In this document: piece by piece, positions 26,920 to 36,087 of the stretch
How positions within the stretch are numbered: the stretch's first letter is position 1
How the letters are laid out: each line of letters opens with the position of its first letter
From: Chlorobium sp.
Lineage (GTDB): Bacteria > Bacteroidota > Chlorobiia > Chlorobiales > Chlorobiaceae
Length of the DNA: 36,087 nucleotides
Direction: 5' to 3'
Assembly (NCBI GenBank): GCA_005843825.1
Contig: SZXX01000032.1
Location: 1-36,087, forward strand
The notes under the pieces: generated by a model
Seen by the model: only the letters and a program-made list of their open reading frames with translations
The model's database searches: none
What the model was told of the DNA's origin: nothing
Made by a program: the position numbers and the translations under genes

Positions 26920-28068
26920 ATGGCTCTTGAATTCAGAAAAGAGGCTCTTAAAAAGCTTAGCTCCCCTGATGATCTTGACCGTTTGATGCCTGTCACTGAT
27001 TCTCGAGGATGGATAGCCATGATCGCGTCAGGAGTTCTTCTGGCCGCTGCATTAGTCTGGGGATTTTTCGGCAATATCCAGACCGTGGTTCAGGGTGAGG
27101 GTATCTTCACTAAGGTTGGTTACATAAATAACATCCCGGCTCTGACATCCGGAGTCATCAAGGATATCGCTGTCAAAGGTGGCGACTCCTTCACGAAAGG
27201 GCAGATTCTGGCCAGGATAGAGCAACCTGAACTCCGCCATACCTATGAGAATGCGTTGCTCGAATCTCAATCTGTTCATCTCCATCAGAAAGAACAGGTT
27301 GCATTTCTCCAGAAGACTATTACCTCTCTTGCTGAAAGGGTTACCCGCATGAACCGGTTATTTCAGGATGGACGTATAGATAAGGGTATTGTCACCGGTG
27401 TCGAACAGGAACTTATGGTGGCAAAAAAACAGCTCTATGATCTTGAGGAGAAAGCATTGGCTGTTAGTCGGAAGACCGATGTGGCCCGTTCCAATTATCA
27501 GCAGCAGTGTAATATTATCGCTCCATTTTCAGGAATTGTCACAGAACGTGAATTCAACAATGGTGATTTCATCCGAACTGGAGAGGGTGCGTTTGAGGTT
27601 GAAGAGAGTGGTAAGGTGGTAACAATGAAGAATGAGCAAGTGGCAGGGGATTCAAGCACCTCTCTTGTTTTTGTTATGTATGTGACGGCGGAAATGGTGA
27701 AAAAAGTGCAGCCCGGCATGCTGGTATATGTGGCATCCTCTACCGTTAAGCCTGAAGAGTACGGTAATATGGTTGGCCAGGTTATCTTTATCAGTCAGTA
27801 CCCGAAAACATATCATTCAATCGTGACAGACTTTAACGAAGATTTAGCTAAGCGGTTCACTGCCCAGGGTTCTCCTTACAGGGTCAAGGTCAAAATTCAA
27901 CCTGACAAATCAACCTTCAGCGGGTTTCGGTGGACTTCAGGCAAGGGGCCCCGCACAATTATCACTTCAGGCATTCTGGGGAATGGACTTATTGCCATTG
28001 ATAATCAGCGACCCATCGATCTTGTCATTCCTTTATTCAAGAAAAATTTTCTTGGACAGACCCTTTAG
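26920..28068 (+). CDS. NHLM bacteriocin system secretion protein (HlyD-family membrane fusion protein)
   Basis: The 382-residue protein has a cytoplasmic N-terminus (ALEFRKEALKKLSSPDDLDRLMPVTDSRGW) and one membrane helix (about 32-51). A biotinyl-lipoyl half (GVIKDIAVKGGDSFTKGQILARIEQPEL), a coiled-coil hairpin (about 105-190) and the second lipoyl half (IIAPFSGIVTEREFNNGDFI) follow, then a beta domain. The LSSPDDLDRLMPVT start is typical of secretion proteins of NHLM systems, which export peptides with Nif11 or nitrile-hydratase-like leaders. It would bridge the ABC exporter to the outer membrane. No TolC-type outer-membrane partner is encoded nearby. The peptidase-exporter gene follows after 38 bp. 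Confidence 0.88.
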   Translation: MALEFRKEALKKLSSPDDLDRLMPVTDSRGWIAMIASGVLLAAALVWGFFGNIQTVVQGEGIFTKVGYINNIPALTSGVIKDIAVKGGDSFTKGQILARIEQPELRHTYENALLESQSVHLHQKEQVAFLQKTITSLAERVTRMNRLFQDGRIDKGIVTGVEQELMVAKKQLYDLEEKALAVSRKTDVARSNYQQQCNIIAPFSGIVTEREFNNGDFIRTGEGAFEVEESGKVVTMKNEQVAGDSSTSLVFVMYVTAEMVKKVQPGMLVYVASSTVKPEEYGNMVGQVIFISQYPKTYHSIVTDFNEDLAKRFTAQGSPYRVKVKIQPDKSTFSGFRWTSGKGPRTIITSGILGNGLIAIDNQRPIDLVIPLFKKNFLGQTL

Positions 28069-28106: not shown

Positions 28107-30296
28107 ATGAAACCGCTGCAAGGACAACTGCCCTGGAAAGAAGCGAGGGTAAAAACCCCGACAGTGTTGCAGATGGAGGCAGTGGAGTGCGGTGCAGCTT
28201 CACTGGCCATGATCCTTTCCTATTACGGCAGGTTTGAGCCACTGGAAAAACTCCGCGCATCATGTGGGGTGTCACGCGATGGCAGCAAGGCGAGCAGCCT
28301 TTTAAAGGCTGCTCGAACTTACGGATTAGAGGCAAAAGGGTTTCGTATCGAACCGGAAGGCATTCGCGACAAACAGCTTCCGATTATCCTTTTCTGGAAC
28401 CTCTATCACTTTGTGGTGCTCGAAGGGTTCCGCAAGGGATTCTACTACATCAACGATCCCGCTTCAGGCCCACGAAAAGTGACTCCGGAAGAGTTCAATG
28501 AATCATTTTCAGGAGTTGTACTCACCTTTTCGCCTACTCCCGAATTCAAGAAGGTGGGGAAGCCATTCAGTCTCATTGATGCGTTGAGAAAACGCATTCC
28601 AGGTCTTGAGCATGCGATGGTTTATATTGTGCTTGTCAGTCTTCTCCTTGTCATCCCGGGGCTTGTTGTTCCTTCATTCCTGCGGATTTTTATCGACTAT
28701 ATTCTCGTGAAGGGGATGCAGAGTTGGCTTAAGCCGCTGCTCATTGGCATGGTGGTGACAGCTATCCTGCAGGGATGCCTGACGTGGCTTCAGCAGCACT
28801 ATCTGCAAAAAGCCGAGACAAAGCTGGCTATGACCTCTTCAGCCAGGTTTTTTAACCATGTATTTGCCCTTCCGATCAGATTTTTCAGCATGCGCCAGGC
28901 AGGTGAAATTTCCAATCGAGTCCAGTTGAATGACAAAGTCGCAACACTTGTTGCCGGGGACCTTTCGGCTAATGCGCTCAATATGCTGATGATCTGTTTT
29001 TATGCGCTCGTCATGTTGAGTTACGATAGAGTACTAACGCTGCTTGCTGTCATGATTGCATTGTTTAATGGGTTGGCCCTTGCCTATGTCTCCCGTCGCC
29101 GCATCGTGTTAAACCAGAAGTTCCAGCAGGATAACGGCAAATTGCTCGGAACGACCTTTTATGGCATCAAGACTATTGAAAGTATCAAGGCATCAGGCGC
29201 GGAGCCGGACTTTTTTTCGCGATGGTCCGGTCTTTTCGCCAATATGGTGACAGGAAGGCAGTCGCTCGAGGTGTCGACAGTTTTCCTTCTTGCCATCCCG
29301 CCATTTCTTCAGACCGCAGGGAACATCGTCGTGCTTGCTGTGGGTGGTTTGCGGGTGATGGAGGGCGAGCTTTCCATGGGAATGCTTATCGCATTTCAGA
29401 GTCTTATGCTCTCTTTTCTTGCACCAGTCAACCAGATGGTGACGCTCGGCCAGAAACTGCAGGAGGCCCAGGGATATATGCAGCGCCTTGATGATGTTAT
29501 GAACAATGAGGCATCTCTTGACGGAGAGAATGATAAACTTCCTGTTCCTGATACCGGAAGCGGCAGCAGGGAGAAGCTGGATGGCTATGTCGAGCTCAAG
29601 AATGTTACATTCGGATACAATCCCCTTGAACCGCCGCTTATTACCGACTTTTCGCTCAAGCTTTCTCCAGGGTCCCGTGTGGCACTGGTTGGAGGATCAG
29701 GCTCAGGTAAATCTACAATTGCCAAGTTGGTTTCAGGTCTTTACGAACCATGGAGCGGGGAGGTGCTGTTCGACGGCAAGCCGAGAAAGATAATTCCGCG
29801 AAATATACTCATCAACTCCATTGGCATGGTTGATCAGGAGATATCCCTTTTTGAGGGCACCATTGCTGAAAATATTGCGATGTGGGACTCGACCATGCCT
29901 CAGGAGGAGATTGCTAGAGCTGCTTCGGATGCGGCCGTTCACGATGTCATTTCTGACCGTACCGGCGGGTACCAGGGTCTGCTGACTGAAGGTGGCAGCA
30001 ATTTCAGCGGAGGGCAACGCCAGAGGATGGAAATTGCCCGGGCACTTGCTATTGAGCCATCGATTCTTATCCTTGACGAGGCAACAAGCGCTCTTGACCC
30101 ATCGACGGAAAAAGTCATTGACGGTAACATACGAAGCCGGGGATGTACCTGCATTATCGCTGCTCACAGGTTGAGCACCATCAGGGATTGTGATGAAATC
30201 ATTGTACTCGAGTATGGCCAGGTAAAAGAGCGGGGCTTGCATGACTCTCTTATGCAGGCTGGTGGAGTATATGCTGGTCTGATCAAAGCAGGATAG
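28107..30296 (+). CDS. NHLM peptidase/permease/ATPase exporter (C39 peptidase)
   Basis: The 729-residue protein is a complete half-transporter with an N-terminal C39 protease. The protease has catalytic Cys28 in VECGAASLAMIL, His101 in YHFVVLEG and Asp117 in NDPASG, so it should be active. Membrane helices span about 165-450. The ATPase has Walker A from residue 529 (GGSGSGKST), signature FSGGQRQR at 633, Walker B ILILDEATSALD (Asp657, Glu658) and the H loop AAHRLSTI. Such proteins cut leaders after double glycine and export the core peptide. The matching substrate is the Nif11-leader gene at 35166. The next gene starts 10 bp downstream. Confidence 0.93.
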   Translation: MKPLQGQLPWKEARVKTPTVLQMEAVECGAASLAMILSYYGRFEPLEKLRASCGVSRDGSKASSLLKAARTYGLEAKGFRIEPEGIRDKQLPIILFWNLYHFVVLEGFRKGFYYINDPASGPRKVTPEEFNESFSGVVLTFSPTPEFKKVGKPFSLIDALRKRIPGLEHAMVYIVLVSLLLVIPGLVVPSFLRIFIDYILVKGMQSWLKPLLIGMVVTAILQGCLTWLQQHYLQKAETKLAMTSSARFFNHVFALPIRFFSMRQAGEISNRVQLNDKVATLVAGDLSANALNMLMICFYALVMLSYDRVLTLLAVMIALFNGLALAYVSRRRIVLNQKFQQDNGKLLGTTFYGIKTIESIKASGAEPDFFSRWSGLFANMVTGRQSLEVSTVFLLAIPPFLQTAGNIVVLAVGGLRVMEGELSMGMLIAFQSLMLSFLAPVNQMVTLGQKLQEAQGYMQRLDDVMNNEASLDGENDKLPVPDTGSGSREKLDGYVELKNVTFGYNPLEPPLITDFSLKLSPGSRVALVGGSGSGKSTIAKLVSGLYEPWSGEVLFDGKPRKIIPRNILINSIGMVDQEISLFEGTIAENIAMWDSTMPQEEIARAASDAAVHDVISDRTGGYQGLLTEGGSNFSGGQRQRMEIARALAIEPSILILDEATSALDPSTEKVIDGNIRSRGCTCIIAAHRLSTIRDCDEIIVLEYGQVKERGLHDSLMQAGGVYAGLIKAG

Positions 30297-30306
30297 AGAT
30301 TCCATC

Positions 30307-32550
30307 ATGGATAGAGGAAACAATCAGCAGGGAACAGGAATGGTATTTGACCGTGAAATTACTTCGAAACCCGGAAGGGCAGCACTGAAAGCTCGTGCCC
30401 AGGAGAAGGAGTACCGGGCCTCGCTTGAACGAATAACCTTGCTGATGAGCGGCAGTCGAACCGCCGTTGAGGGGAATATGGATGTTGACCCCTTGTTTGC
30501 AGCATGCTCAGTGGTTGGCAGGGCTGCAGGGATCAGTTTCCGCAAGCCGTATGCGGAACTGCAAAACTCCCATGAAGAGCCTTTGCAATTGATCTGCAGA
30601 TTTTCCGGCGTCCGCACACGGATGGTTACCTTGCAGAAGTCGGAGAGATGGTGGCTCAGTGACAGCGGGCCGATACTTTGCTTTTCAGCCCTTGACAGGA
30701 GGCCTATGAGCCTGTTGCCCGACGGATCATCAGGGTACCGCCTTTTTGATCCTTCTACGGCGAAGACGGAGGAAGTAACGGCGACTGTTGCTGAGGAGCT
30801 TGCTGACAAGGCATGGATGTTTTACCGTCCGTTTCCCGAGAAACCGCTTCAGGGAAAGGAACTTTTGGTGTTCGGCTTGCAGGGCTCCCGAAGTGATCTC
30901 TTGCGCCTGGTTCTTCTTGGAAGCGCCGGGGCAATGCTCGGTCTCCTGACCCCGGTGCTTACGGGCAAGCTTTTTGGCAGCGTGATTCCCCACTCAGACC
31001 GGGGGCAGCTTTTGCAGCTTACCTTGATCCTCATTGCCAGTGTCATTTCGGTGTCCGGTTTTAATCTGGCCCGTCAGGTTGCCTTTATTCGAATGGAGAC
31101 ACGAATGGACATGCTTATTCAGCAGGGTCTTATCGACCGGCTTCTTAACCTGCCCAGTAATTTTTTCCGCAACTACTCTTCAGGCGATCTGGCCATGCGG
31201 GTTCTCGGTGCAAATCAGATTCGTGAAATCCTCAGCAGCTCTGCTGTAAGCGTCATTCTTGGTATGCTCTTCAGCCTCTTTTTGGTGGCTCTTCTCTTTT
31301 ACTACAGCTGGAAGCTCGCCATTCTGGCTTTGTCGCTGACAGTTATCATGCTTGTGATATTGGTATTCATCAGCCTTCGTCAGCTTGCCTTGAACCGTGA
31401 GGCACTGAATGTTCAGGGTAAGATTTCCGGATTACTCGGCAACCTGCTTGGTGGTATTGCAAAAATCAGGGTAACCGGAACTGAAATGACGGCTTTTTCA
31501 AAATGGGCGGATTTGTTTGTCTGCGAAAGGGGCTTGATGTTCGAGAGCAGGAATTACCAGAACATGCTTACCGTGGTCACAACCGTATTTCCGGTTGCAG
31601 CACTTGCGATCATCATTTTCTCGGTAGTCAGTTTGCGTAAGGGTGAAATGCTCGACACAGGTTCCTTTATTGCGTTCACCACTGCATACACCACCGTTCA
31701 GACCATGCTGATGCAGATGCTCATGATGGCTATTTCAAGCCTCAAAGTGGTTCCGCTGTATGAAAGGCTTAAACCTGTTCTTGAGACGGCACCGGAAGCC
31801 GATGAATCAAAAAAATACCCTGGCAAGCTGCGGGGAAGCATCGTTGTTCAGAACCTTAATTTCAGCTATAGCAGCGAAGGGCCTCAAATTCTGTTTGATA
31901 TCAATTTCTCTGCTTCTCCAGGGGAGTTTGTGGCTCTTGTAGGAGGTTCAGGATCTGGAAAGTCGACATTGCTGCGTTTGCTGCTTGGATTTGAAAAACC
32001 TGATTTGGGTACAGTCTATTATGATGGAGAGGATCTTGCATCGCTCAATGTGCAGGGAGTTCGTCGCAATATCGGGGTGGTGATGCAGAATGGACAGCTT
32101 CAACCAGGATTTATACTTCAGAACATTATCGGTTCCTCAACCCTCACTGTTGACGATGCCTGGGAAGCTGCCAGAATGGCAGGATTGGATGAAGATATCC
32201 GCAAGATGCCTATGGGTATGCATACCGTCATCAGTGAAGGCGGAGGTACGCTTTCCGGAGGGCAGAAACAGCGTCTGCTGATTGCCGGGGCTCTCGTTCG
32301 CAAACCTGGTATCATTTTCTTCGATGAAGCCACAAGCGCCCTCGACAACCGCACTCAGGAGGTGGTCAGCAAAAGTCAGGAGCAGCTTAAAGCTACCCGT
32401 ATTGTGATTGCTCACCGTCTCAGTACTATCCGTAACGCTGACCGAATCTACTGTCTCGAAAAGGGCCGTATCGTCCAGTCCGGCACCTATGATGAACTGA
32501 TTGCCCAGGAGGGTTTTTTCAAGGAACTGGCAAGCAGGCAGATAGCGTAA
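30307..32550 (+). CDS. NHLM bacteriocin system ABC transporter (second, non-peptidase)
   Basis: The 747-residue protein has an N-terminal soluble region of about 190 residues with no C39 catalytic residues. It contains ISFRKPY, SERWWLSDSGPILCF and SSGYRLFDPSTAKTEEV, as in the second ABC protein of NHLM clusters. Membrane helices lie at about 195-480. The ATPase has Walker A at about 545 (VGGSGSGKST), signature LSGGQKQR, Walker B IIFFDEATSALD and H loop IAHRLSTI. It may form a heterodimer with the upstream peptidase-exporter. Its start overlaps nothing but lies 10 bp from the upstream stop, indicating one operon. Confidence 0.92.
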   Translation: MDRGNNQQGTGMVFDREITSKPGRAALKARAQEKEYRASLERITLLMSGSRTAVEGNMDVDPLFAACSVVGRAAGISFRKPYAELQNSHEEPLQLICRFSGVRTRMVTLQKSERWWLSDSGPILCFSALDRRPMSLLPDGSSGYRLFDPSTAKTEEVTATVAEELADKAWMFYRPFPEKPLQGKELLVFGLQGSRSDLLRLVLLGSAGAMLGLLTPVLTGKLFGSVIPHSDRGQLLQLTLILIASVISVSGFNLARQVAFIRMETRMDMLIQQGLIDRLLNLPSNFFRNYSSGDLAMRVLGANQIREILSSSAVSVILGMLFSLFLVALLFYYSWKLAILALSLTVIMLVILVFISLRQLALNREALNVQGKISGLLGNLLGGIAKIRVTGTEMTAFSKWADLFVCERGLMFESRNYQNMLTVVTTVFPVAALAIIIFSVVSLRKGEMLDTGSFIAFTTAYTTVQTMLMQMLMMAISSLKVVPLYERLKPVLETAPEADESKKYPGKLRGSIVVQNLNFSYSSEGPQILFDINFSASPGEFVALVGGSGSGKSTLLRLLLGFEKPDLGTVYYDGEDLASLNVQGVRRNIGVVMQNGQLQPGFILQNIIGSSTLTVDDAWEAARMAGLDEDIRKMPMGMHTVISEGGGTLSGGQKQRLLIAGALVRKPGIIFFDEATSALDNRTQEVVSKSQEQLKATRIVIAHRLSTIRNADRIYCLEKGRIVQSGTYDELIAQEGFFKELASRQIA

Positions 32551-32678: not shown

Positions 32679-32803
32679 TGTGAGAAAATTATCGCCATGG
32701 AGCAATGGCTTTTTGTCGGGAGAACGCTTTGCCGTAAACTCTTAATTTGATCAGTCCAGTTAAGCAGCATTGGAAAATATTGAATCAATTCAATAATTGT
32801 TTT

Positions 32804-33661
32804 ATGCCACAAGTCTCATTACTTTTTTTTCAAAAGCTTCGGTTGTGTTTGCTTTTTTCGGTTTTGACAGTTGTCAGCACATTATCACACGCTGTCGCTT
32901 ATGGAGCAGATAACTCCTATAGTGAGTATGCCCCCGATGTACGTCGGATTATCAGTCGAGGGTTTCTCATCGTTGCCATGCCAAAGACCGATAATGCACC
33001 ATTTTATTATGAACGAAATGGCCAGATGCTTGGGCTTGAGGTCGATATAGTTCGCGGTTTTGCCAAAGAGTTAGGGGTTCAAATGCGATTTTATCGAAAT
33101 GCGAAAAACCAGGATGAAGTAATTGATGTCATAGCCAAAGGTGAAGCTGATATTGGTATTGGTAAACTGAGCAGAACCTTCAAGCGGGCATCTAAAGTGA
33201 GATTTTCCGATCCATATTTGACGATGCATCACGCTTTAGCGCTCAATCAGTTGCGGATCAATCAGTTAGCCAAAGGGAGTACTGTTCCGGCTGAGCTTCA
33301 ACGCTTCTCGGGCTCGATTGCCGTGCTTGAAAACACAGCTTACGCAGATTTGGCGTACCAAAATTTTCCACATGCAAAAATCATCAAATTTAATAACTGG
33401 ATCAGTGCCGTCAGTTCCATCAAAGAGGGCAGGATCGATGCCTTGTACCGTGATGAGTTCGAAATCAAGCGCTTGATAAAAGCTGATTCACGTAACTCGC
33501 TGATTATGAAAACTGTCATTTTTACAGATCTTGACGCTTCGATTTCGTTTGCTATGCGACATGATTGCCTGCAACTGTTGAGCCTGCTCAATATTTATCT
33601 TTCTCAAGAAACTCATCCGATGACCGTTTCTAAACTCATGAAACTCCTGCCTACGACATGA
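32804..33661 (+). CDS. Periplasmic solute-binding protein, amino-acid type (SBP_bac_3)
   Basis: ATG 32804 is chosen over the upstream TTG 32747 because it gives a signal peptide with a basic start and a hydrophobic core (LCLLFSVLTVVSTLSHAVAYG). The 285-residue protein has family-3 binding motifs: RGFLIVAMPKTDNAPFYYERNGQMLGLEVDIVRGFAKEL, then GEADIGIGKLSRTFKRASKVRFSDPYL, where the Arg corresponds to the ligand carboxylate-binding Arg. RIDALYRDE carries the Asp that usually binds an alpha-amino group. An amino acid-like ligand is therefore likely. No ABC importer is adjacent; instead its last 4 bp overlap a symporter-fold gene. Confidence 0.85.
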   Translation: MPQVSLLFFQKLRLCLLFSVLTVVSTLSHAVAYGADNSYSEYAPDVRRIISRGFLIVAMPKTDNAPFYYERNGQMLGLEVDIVRGFAKELGVQMRFYRNAKNQDEVIDVIAKGEADIGIGKLSRTFKRASKVRFSDPYLTMHHALALNQLRINQLAKGSTVPAELQRFSGSIAVLENTAYADLAYQNFPHAKIIKFNNWISAVSSIKEGRIDALYRDEFEIKRLIKADSRNSLIMKTVIFTDLDASISFAMRHDCLQLLSLLNIYLSQETHPMTVSKLMKLLPTT

Positions 33662-34977
33662 AGAAGTTAACAGATATCTTGCGGGAAAAATCAACCAGCC
33701 CGTCTGTTGTATTGGCGAGCGTGATTGCTGGACTATGCCTGGGTAATTTATCCCCCGGGTTTTCGTTATCAATAAATTTTGTCAGCGAGCTCTATGTTAA
33801 TCTGCTAAAGATGATTACCCTGCCCTTTATGATGGCAGCGGTAATCTACAGCATAACTCTTTTGCTGAAGTCTGAGGACATCTCAGGCATACTCGGCAGG
33901 ATCGTAAGCCTGTTTTTTTTCTTCATGTTTGCATGCACATTACTCGGACTAGTGGTTGGCTTTGTCATGGGGCCTGGGCGTGGGCTGTCGGAACACACCT
34001 TGAGTATGCTGGGAAAATTGGTCGGAGAGGACCTTAACCATACCGATCAGATCGAAATGACTCTTTTCGGCAAATTGCCGGTTGTCAATTCTCTACGTAT
34101 CAGTGACACCTTAATGGGTATTGTGCCAAATAATATTTTTGTAGCTTTGTTCAATGGGGATACCGTCAAGGTTCTGATTTTTTCTTTGATCATCGGTCTG
34201 GTTGTCGGGCACCTGCCTTCGCAGGTTTCGCAGCCGTTGATCGATGCTCTGAATGGTATTTTCCATGCATGCCTTAAACTTACGATCTGGTTGAACTACC
34301 TGCTCCCGCTGGTGCTTATTGCAATGGTTGCATATCAGACCGCAACAATGGGCATTGAGCCTCTGAAGATGATGCTCGGATTTATCGTGACTTTGGGGGT
34401 TGCATCACTTATTGTAATTTTTGTTTCATTCATTGCGTTGCAAAGGGCCAGCGGTCAGAAATGGAAGACTGTCTGGGATAGCCAGAGAGAAACCATCTTC
34501 TTTGTGATTGCTACTCGTAATTCTATGGCAGCCATTCCACTGATGATCGACGGGTTAGTTAAGCATCTGGGATTTAACAAATCCCGAATTGAATTGATGG
34601 TGCCGCTGGGTGTCTCCTTATTACGAGTGGGACCTGCGCTCTTCTATACGATAGCCACCCTTTTCATTGCGCAACTGTACGGACGGGTGCTGCTTCCTTT
34701 TGAATGGGTGATCATTGTTATTGCTTCGGTTATAGCAGCTTTTGCTTCATCCGGTATGACAGGCTTAACTACGATTTCTCTGACCGGCATTGTATGTTCC
34801 TTACTTGGCCTTCCATTTGAATCCCTTATAGTACTCTTTGCCGCCATCGATACTTTAAGCAATACGCTCCGTGTTGTTGTCACTGCTTTATGTGCCAATG
34901 CTTTTGCCGCCATGGCCTGCAAGCAGGAAAATGAAAATCAATCTTTAAAGGCTGTCCCTGAGGGCTGCTATGTATGA
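33658..34977 (+). CDS. Glutamate/dicarboxylate symporter-fold (DAACS) transporter with degenerate sodium sites
   Basis: The 439-residue membrane protein aligns with bacterial GltP/GltPh-type symporters through eight helices and two hairpin loops. Hairpin 1 reads TRNSMAAIP (286-294), where GltPh has TRSSSGTLP. The NMDGT sodium motif is replaced by LRVGP (322-326). In the last helix Asp398 and Arg405 are kept, but GltPh Asp394, Asn401 and Asp405 correspond to Asn402, Thr409 and Ala413. Arg405 should still bind an acidic group, whereas sodium sites 1 and 3 look destroyed. It could be a proton-coupled carrier, a facilitator or a receptor. ATGA overlap with the binding-protein gene argues for a joint function. 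Alignment is by eye from memory of GltPh. Confidence 0.85.
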   Translation: MKKLTDILREKSTSPSVVLASVIAGLCLGNLSPGFSLSINFVSELYVNLLKMITLPFMMAAVIYSITLLLKSEDISGILGRIVSLFFFFMFACTLLGLVVGFVMGPGRGLSEHTLSMLGKLVGEDLNHTDQIEMTLFGKLPVVNSLRISDTLMGIVPNNIFVALFNGDTVKVLIFSLIIGLVVGHLPSQVSQPLIDALNGIFHACLKLTIWLNYLLPLVLIAMVAYQTATMGIEPLKMMLGFIVTLGVASLIVIFVSFIALQRASGQKWKTVWDSQRETIFFVIATRNSMAAIPLMIDGLVKHLGFNKSRIELMVPLGVSLLRVGPALFYTIATLFIAQLYGRVLLPFEWVIIVIASVIAAFASSGMTGLTTISLTGIVCSLLGLPFESLIVLFAAIDTLSNTLRVVVTALCANAFAAMACKQENENQSLKAVPEGCYV

Positions 34978-35165: not shown

Positions 35166-35438
35166 ATGTCATTAGATCATGCAAGAGCGTTCATTGAGAA
35201 GATCAAATCAGACGATGAATTCAGGGATCGTATTGGTGCCATTGAAGAGGTTGATGGCAGAGTTGCTGCGGCCAGATGCGCAGGATTTGATTTTACAGAA
35301 GCCGAGGTGAAAGAGGTGCAAAGCGAGTTATCAGACTTCGAGCTGGACAACGCGGCTGGCGGTGGGGATGGTCAGTTTGATGACAATAATAGTGATGAGC
35401 CATCATATGTAATAAATGGGACAAGAGACATAGACTGA
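35166..35438 (+). CDS. Nif11-like leader peptide precursor (NHLP family) with acidic core
   Basis: GGGAG lies a few bases before ATG 35166. The 90-residue protein begins MSLDHARAFIEKIKSDDEFRDRI and continues with CAGFDFTEAEVKEVQSELSDFELDNAAGGG, a clear Nif11-type leader ending in the double-glycine site at residues 65-66. The predicted mature part, about residues 67-90, is GDGQFDDNNSDEPSYVINGT plus RDID. It has no Cys, one Arg and seven acidic residues, unlike most lanthipeptide or thiazole precursors. The C39 exporter at 28107 is the expected processing enzyme. No LanM, radical SAM, YcaO or ATP-grasp peptide ligase is seen near it. Leader call is strong; the bioactivity is unknown. Confidence 0.9.
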   Translation: MSLDHARAFIEKIKSDDEFRDRIGAIEEVDGRVAAARCAGFDFTEAEVKEVQSELSDFELDNAAGGGDGQFDDNNSDEPSYVINGTRDID

Positions 35439-35579: not shown

Positions 35580-35711
35580 AATTTTGAGCGAGGTGTTCAG
35601 GGGTTTCCGGTAACTATATAATAGTTATTGCCTGTCGCTCGATATTAGCTTTTATTTGAATGTTTTTTGTTAGCCCCCATACTTGATTATTCTTTTTCAA
35701 TCTTGAATAAG

Positions 35712-36087
35712 ATGAGCAATAGTAGACGTGTATGTGCGGCATGGACATTAAACGGGTTCTTCATCCTCGCACTTTTAGTGCTTTTTTCCCGTCATGCGCT
35801 TGCCAGCGATAATCTTCCTCTACCCCCGCCTCAGGCCTCACAAGAAGTGCAGCTGATATTTCAGGATATTGTGAGTACTGGAGATAATAAAAATATGCCA
35901 TTTATCATTCTTGATAAGAAGCAGGCAAAAATTTATTCTTTTCAAAAGGACGGCCAGCTTCTTGGTGAGGCTCCTGCGCTTCTTGGTATAGCAATTGGCG
36001 ATTACTACTACCCCGGCACTGGACAAAAATTAATGTCAGATATTAAAGTCGAAGAACGAACAACGCCGGCCGGGCGCTTTCATGGAC
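35712..36087 (+). CDS. L,D-transpeptidase-like (YkuD family) protein, 3' end outside window
   Basis: ATG 35712 opens a frame that runs off the window after 125 codons. An N-terminal signal peptide (about 1-32, ending in ...FSRHALAS) is followed by a proline-rich linker. The start of a catalytic domain comes next: FIILDKKQAKIYSFQKDGQL, PALLGIAIGDYYYPG and VEERTTPAGRFHG. TTPAGRF is characteristic of YkuD-type transpeptidases that crosslink peptidoglycan or attach proteins to it. The catalytic His and Cys motifs would lie downstream and cannot be seen. The upstream terminator suggests its own promoter; TATAAT at 35617-35622 is a possible -10 box. Confidence 0.75.
   Translation, partial: MSNSRRVCAAWTLNGFFILALLVLFSRHALASDNLPLPPPQASQEVQLIFQDIVSTGDNKNMPFIILDKKQAKIYSFQKDGQLLGEAPALLGIAIGDYYYPGTGQKLMSDIKVEERTTPAGRFHG

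Follow-up and report, generated by a model that had tools for sequence, protein, structure and literature searches.

What can a membrane protein of the GltPh type do when the residues that bind sodium in its relatives have been replaced, and why does a gene for a solute-binding protein (SBP) stand directly upstream of its own gene? These questions are raised by a gene pair in a stretch of 36,087 nucleotides of Chlorobium sp. DNA, called the window below (Table 1). As set out in the following sections, the clade to which the membrane protein belongs, the R-type SDF proteins, and its constant SBP neighbour suggest an undescribed kind of binding-protein-dependent transporter or sensor.

Table 1. 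Coordinates of the features discussed (positions in the window; residue numbers of the SDF protein)
Feature	Position	Strand	Basis
SDF-fold membrane protein, R-type SDF1, 439 aa	33658..34977	+	Pfam SDF; AlphaFold2 model vs GltPh/EAAT/ASCT2
LRVGP, residues 322-326, in place of NMDGT; Arg323 at GltPh Met311	34621..34635	+	Structure-based and wider alignments
Arg287 in hairpin 1 (GltPh Arg276), kept	34516..34518	+	Alignment
TM8 segment D398-A413 with N402, R405, V406, T409, A413 (GltPh D394, R397, T398, N401, D405)	34849..34896	+	Alignment
Periplasmic solute-binding protein, family 3	32804..33661	+	SBP_bac_3, 60 bits; model; conserved ligand Arg/Asp
NHLM exporter, HlyD-type adaptor	26920..28068	+	TIGR03794, 248 bits, above cut-off
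NHLM exporter, peptidase/ABC subunit 1	28107..30296	+	TIGR03796, 1087 bits, above cut-off
NHLM exporter, ABC subunit 2	30307..32550	+	TIGR03797, 915 bits, above cut-off
Nif11-type RiPP precursor	35166..35438	+	TIGR03798, 68 bits, above cut-off

Fold and ion sites of the membrane protein

The frame of the membrane protein is open throughout on the plus strand, as the first-pass annotation had stated; a minus-strand reading of the locus was ruled out, stops being abundant there. SDF (PF00375) is the sole Pfam family in the protein and covers amino acids 18-419 with 179 bits (cut-off 27.9). Pfam gave no match to DctQM, TctAB or GltS, and thus no assignment to the TRAP, TTT or TAXI-GltS classes, and the scores against the curated DctA/GltP subfamilies of NCBIfam were below the cut-offs (119 vs 513, 97 vs 570 and 89 vs 638 bits). 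The AlphaFold2 model (pLDDT 88, pTM 0.86) matches the structures of GltPh, EAAT and ASCT2 with Z scores of 33-43, and retains HP1, HP2 and a predicted break in TM7 at residues 322-323. The GltPh-like fold claimed earlier is supported by both the profile and the model, and the predicted GltPh-type arrangement (HP1, broken TM7, HP2, TM8) with its TM8 arginine places the protein in the SDF/DAACS family.

Residues were assigned by alignment with solved structures, those of GltPh and related proteins, and by a second, wider MAFFT alignment, which adds E. coli GltP, DctA, SstT and TcyP and in which the residue numbering of GltPh was checked. The registers of the two alignments agree. N310, M311, D312, G313 and T314 of GltPh stand opposite L322, R323, V324, G325 and P326, and in TM8 D394, R397, T398, N401 and D405 stand opposite N402, R405, V406, T409 and A413. 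The replacement of NMDGT by LRVGP, the numbers given for N402, T409 and A413 and the retention of the substrate arginine, Arg405, had thus been read correctly. No intact NMDGT was found elsewhere in the protein by alignment to the solved structures, and a misalignment concealing the motif was ruled out by the two independent alignments together with the AlphaFold2 model. In TM3, too, the residues that belong to site Na3 are replaced (Y89 by F, T92 by F and S93 by M).

In GltPh, D405 and main-chain carbonyls coordinate Na1, main-chain carbonyls also coordinate Na2, near which the NMDGT methionine lies, and Na3 is bound by T92, S93, N310 and D312 (PMC5110648). Because D405, N310, D312, T92 and S93 are all replaced in the window protein, Na1 and Na3 are left without side-chain ligands and cannot form as they do in GltPh, which agrees with the prediction that these two sites should not form. 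The signature of Na+-coupled glutamate/aspartate transporters (NMDGT, D405 and T92/S93/N310/D312) is absent from the protein. At Na2, the alignment puts an arginine in the place of the GltPh methionine.

The R-type subfamily and its arginine

Homologues were searched by an alignment-based scan of 84,980 species genomes, which gave 60 loci, with close relatives in 56; the scan used two peptide patterns only, so that this census is incomplete, and four weak matches (L091-L094) were canonical-type SDFs. A genome scan with the single window protein gave no homologues, its peptide patterns being too specific. Four matches were obtained among 72,556 plasmids, three of them close relatives and one more distant, and no close homologues were found among viral contigs. 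Identity to the window protein is about 48% for a homologue from a Sulfuricella MAG and about 36-44% for most others.

An arginine at the position of GltPh Met311 is present in 59/59 SDF1 homologues and in 48/48 scorable SDF2 paralogues of the same operons, and in none of 38 canonical proteins, a sample drawn mostly from relatives in the same phylum as the window, with the E. coli proteins and GltPh added. NMDGT is absent from all these SDF1 and SDF2 proteins, a distribution beyond chance. Neither Asn310 nor Asp312 occurs in any of the 59 SDF1 proteins, and position 405 is Asn in 55; R276 is kept in 56 and R397 in every one. In the tree, SDF1 and SDF2 lie on one side of a 100/99 branch and GltPh, GltP, DctA, SstT and TcyP on the other. 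The earlier statement that this protein has lost its sodium-binding residues therefore holds as to the replacement itself, but not as a change particular to this protein. Judged from the aligned sequences, the motif loss is an ancestral signature of the clade and not an oddity of the window protein, and the invariant arginine gained within the motif by the whole clade had been overlooked. The only window-specific changes are D394N and T398V (N402 and V406), by which amino-group contacts would be removed.

Other charges have been acquired clade-wide in SDF1, namely E312 (58/59), E388 (59/59) and R/K308 (K308 in the window protein); canonical proteins usually have other residues at the positions of E312 and E388. 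The SDF2 proteins of the Burkholderiales loci (e.g. L034:10922-12373) are more divergent, with Arg311, with mainly Glu in place of D394 and Asn in place of T398, and are possibly heteromeric partners of SDF1.

These residues bear on the proton-coupled mechanism that the first-pass annotation had offered as an example. The pair might consist of an ordinary proton-coupled SDF with diverged ion sites and an SBP gene that is linked but separate; most subfamily members carry two substitutions of the H+ type (T92 replaced, D405N), and the new acids E312 and E388 could carry protons. However, the signature of H+-coupled members (ExtH) comprises a change of [T/S]92 to a hydrophobic residue, M311L, D405N and S279E (PMC12668577), whereas in the subfamily position 311 is R and position 279 is A or M, and the window protein, in which T92 is replaced, has R311, A405 and M279. 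Furthermore, E312 and E388 are sequence neighbours of the binding site rather than part of its lining, R/K308 and E312 resemble a local salt bridge, and the SBP adjacency described below is too constant for an unrelated gene. Proton coupling is thus not favoured, and we consider this explanation rather improbable.

The subfamily was found in 0/393 other genomes of the window's phylum, where the best matches were at the level of canonical SDFs, and the window protein is the only SDF found in its genome, with no canonical SDF to share its job. A broad sample of the class of its nearest relative (L036) gave matches in 2/274 genomes, so that the subfamily is rare. The organism labels of three loci (L087, L082 and L052; Chitinophaga, Bordetella and Akkermansia MAGs) do not fit their betaproteobacterial clade, and these names were not relied on. 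The SBP-SDF pair is not present in the NHLM clusters retrieved for 12 genomes of the same genus as the window, some of these contigs being short. Since the pair is missing from these clusters and the subfamily from the rest of the phylum sample, it was probably acquired by horizontal transfer.

A gene isolated in this way in its phylum might be a degenerating relic of such a transfer, without function. The window protein deviates at 14 of 84 otherwise-invariant subfamily positions, the most among the members compared, and the window lacks the racemase and the second SDF of related operons. Nevertheless, the full-length frame is intact, as is the overlapping SBP gene, the key residues R287, R323, R405 and D398 are kept, and the substitutions are mostly conservative. 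We regard a relic as very improbable; with 70/84 of these positions retained, R323 and R405 among them, the protein is probably functional, as had been supposed.

The binding-protein gene and its neighbourhoods

The SBP frame starts with an ATG at 32804 and extends upstream to a TTG at 32747. Its Pfam match to SBP_bac_3 (cut-off 26.4), its predicted fold and an Arg/Asp pair assign the product to family 3, and a likely signal peptide was recognised by eye. The model matches amino-acid-binding proteins (ligands L-Trp, Lys, Arg, Gln, Glu and Asp) with Z scores of about 20-23. R147 and D236, invariant among the aligned homologues, are presumably the contacts of family-3 proteins to the ligand carboxylate and amino groups. 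The SBP stop overlaps the SDF start as ATGA, which confirms the coupling to a binding-protein gene noted earlier. Promoter-like sites near the two genes are no more frequent than expected by chance, and the GC content of the pair is not distinct from that of the window.

An SBP gene lies directly 5' of the R-type SDF gene in the complete homologous loci surveyed, likewise in Gemmobacter (L035), with one match being weak (L076, 20 bits only). A locus from a gammaproteobacterial-class genome, found by a separate search (L131), has an SBP of 195 bits upstream of an SDF with the motif CRYGN. In contrast, no SBP gene was found within about 1.4 kb of 29 sampled canonical SDF genes. Strong SBP matches (E up to 1e-20) occurred in only four of the 72,556 plasmids, namely the four with an R-type SDF. 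The two genes thus show the constant genetic association of SBP and secondary transporter that marks SBP-dependent classes. The pairwise identities of SBP and SDF1 correlate with r = 0.92 (59 sequences each), and L036 is the nearest relative of the window for both proteins; this correlation of sequence identities shows co-inheritance, not contact. No SBP-SDF fusions were found, the long frames in some SDF matches being upstream read-through without SBP domains.

In the window the pair stands between the NHLM exporter genes and the Nif11 precursor gene. A terminator-like hairpin at 32694-32709 separates the gene for ABC subunit 2 from the SBP gene, so that co-transcription with the exporter is not established. 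The genome of the window has three Nif11-type precursors above the cut-off. The ORF at 35667-36087, cut by the window end, has a signal-peptide-like start and an L,D-transpeptidase-like look, and the part present gave no Pfam match.

The NHLM exporter, beside which the first-pass annotation had proposed to look for homologues with LRVGP, turned out to be the exception: only in the window and in a Rhodoferax MAG, two lineages in all, was one found to adjoin the module. Most homologues lie within type VI secretion (T6SS) clusters of Burkholderiales, most of which have the order MORN protein, DUF4280 (PAAR-like), SBP, SDF1, Asp/Glu racemase, SDF2, TssJ and TssK, TssJ being named from its place and look, without a Pfam match. 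The racemase gene lies 3' of SDF1 in most homologous operons. The Rhodoferax contig (L079/L167) carries NHLM-type HlyD, ABC1 and ABC2 genes (HlyD above the cut-off, the two ABC proteins just below), followed by genes for an outer membrane efflux protein, an FAD-binding protein, a dCache-guanylate cyclase, SBP, SDF and racemase.

Further genes were observed 3' of some pairs. L082 has a dCache protein with a guanylate/adenylate cyclase domain (Pfam) directly 3' of its SDF, and the SBP-SDF pair of L087 is followed by an ORF equal in length and similar in its start, identified by these features and not by a Pfam scan; these neighbours hint at a signalling link. The region 3' of the operon of the closest homologue (L036:4300-11289) contains genes for a ParA-like ATPase and for an ABC exporter of cyclic-peptide-exporter look, together with ORFs resembling, by eye, EcsC, SPFH, thioesterase and phosphopantetheinyl transferase proteins.

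The cluster itself has been known since 2021, when the set was described in the legume symbiont Paraburkholderia phymatum by Hug et al., who called both SDFs sodium:dicarboxylate symporters (PMC8356804). The excerpts of that report consulted here propose a sensing role for the T6SS-b symporters, give T6SS expression as highest on citrate, not aspartate or glutamate, and contain no mention of the lost sodium sites or of an SBP partnership.

The main rival to transport is accordingly a sensor for secretion systems, in which the SBP-SDF pair, without a useful transport rate, would report an extracellular amino or carboxylic acid to the T6SS, the NHLM exporter or the dCache-cyclase. Such a role would suit the placement of most homologues between MORN/PAAR-like genes and TssJ/TssK, the NHLM exporters beside the pair in the window and in Rhodoferax, the dCache-cyclase genes adjoining L079 and L082 with the similar-length ORF after L087, and the sensing proposal of Hug et al. 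Neither the SDF nor the SBP has a signalling domain, however, the canonical elements of the transport domain (HP1, HP2 and R397) are retained, the operon racemase points to ligand metabolism, and some loci, e.g. that of Gemmobacter, have no secretion system nearby. A sensor is in our opinion unlikely.

Proposed mechanism and comparison with known systems

The reading we prefer, to which we give nearly an even chance, is an elevator transporter that depends on its SBP but not on Na+ and carries an acidic amino acid or a dicarboxylate, with an arginine as built-in cation. It would be a two-part system of a periplasmic family-3 SBP and an elevator-type SDF protein, presumably trimeric as judged from its homology to GltPh. 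The ligand is most likely an Asp/Glu-type amino acid or a dicarboxylate related to it; this small acid would be captured by the SBP and passed to the SDF protein, which would carry it over the inner membrane without the help of sodium. Such feeding of the SDF protein by the SBP is suggested by the constancy of the pairing. The gene pair, the fold family, the replaced residues with their conservation throughout the clade, and the co-inheritance of the two genes are shown by the analysis, whereas transport as such, the kind of substrate, its hand-over, the part played by the arginine and the absence of ion coupling are inferred. In GltPh it is Met311 that flips into the binding site, where it touches both substrate and Na2 (PMC12668577; PMC8431971). 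The guanidinium group of Arg323, whose placement at this site rests on alignment, could act as a built-in cation in place of bound sodium, a proposal based on the invariant arginine at Met311 and on the missing acids at D312 and D405. As the window protein has no acid at D312, D394 or D405, its net flux would be uncoupled or would proceed by exchange, with a bias given by a high-affinity SBP.

The transporter model is supported by the SBP gene upstream of R-type SDF genes as against 0/29 canonical ones, by the joint occurrence of both genes on plasmids, their correlated identities and their ATGA overlap in the window, by the clade-wide loss of the sodium residues with fixation of the arginine, by the well-supported branch that sets the R-type SDFs apart, and by the invariant ligand Arg/Asp of the SBP, its predicted amino-acid-binding fold and the racemase in the operons. 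Several points count against it. D394N and T398V imply that the substrate of the window SDF may differ from that of its SBP; the placement in secretion clusters and beside dCache-cyclase genes is as compatible with sensing as with uptake; genes of one operon are expected to be inherited together even if their products are not physical partners; the citrate response of the P. phymatum T6SS does not point to aspartate or glutamate; and neither a contact between the two proteins nor a fusion of them was found.

The only secondary transporters described as using a soluble SBP are TRAP, TTT and, since 2025, TAXI-GltS (PMC12344293). If the SBP dependence holds, the pair would represent a further class, with the GltPh elevator fold, a fixed arginine replacing sodium, an SBP that gives affinity and direction, and a modular association with secretion systems; we put this wider claim forward as possible but somewhat doubtful. 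Further classes are needed, according to the authors of the last, to find out whether it is the elevator mechanism that permits SBP use (PMC12344293), and, GltPh being among the best-studied elevators, an SBP-linked relative would allow this question to be addressed on a well-understood scaffold. The fixed arginine at Met311 would also be a natural experiment on the loss of sodium coupling; the LeuT/APC fold offers known examples of this kind, but we found no report of one in the SDF fold.

Compared with GltPh/GltTk, GltP, DctA, SstT and TcyP (SDF, DAACS, SLC1 fold), the window protein is alike in its near-full-length fold, HP1, HP2, the TM7 break and the equivalent of Arg397, but differs in the replaced NMDGT, the arginine at Met311, the missing Na1/Na3 side chains and the constant SBP neighbour. 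Bphy_5989-5992 of the P. phymatum T6SS-b (PMC8356804) includes an SBP and an R-type SDF homologous to those of the window (SDF about 41% identical); unlike the window, it belongs to a T6SS cluster, includes a racemase and another R-type SDF, and keeps D394 and T398.

An SDF without sodium dependence, as proposed here, has a precedent in the uncoupled ancestor AncInt, which nevertheless retains all sodium-binding residues, its uncoupling being allosteric (PMC12668577). A positive side chain at a sodium site is found in the sodium-independent CaiT, BasC and ApcT of the APC/LeuT fold, with CaiT Arg262 (proposed) and BasC Lys154 (studied) filling the site (PMC6472337); the fold differs, and the window arginine would play its part by analogy.

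The precedents for an SBP working with an elevator transporter, shown or suggested, are TRAP, TTT and TAXI-GltS, and the authors of PMC12344293 link SBP use to elevators. TRAP and TTT resemble the proposed system in SBP-dependent secondary transport and, for TRAP, in the elevator mechanism, but have other membrane subunits and SBPs, and TRAP is sodium-coupled. TAXI-GltS of Bordetella pertussis (PMC12344293) belongs to other families, its SBP to TAXI and its membrane protein, a Na+/glutamate symporter, to GltS; like the window pair, it has an SBP gene translationally coupled to the gene of a secondary transporter for which an elevator mechanism is proposed.
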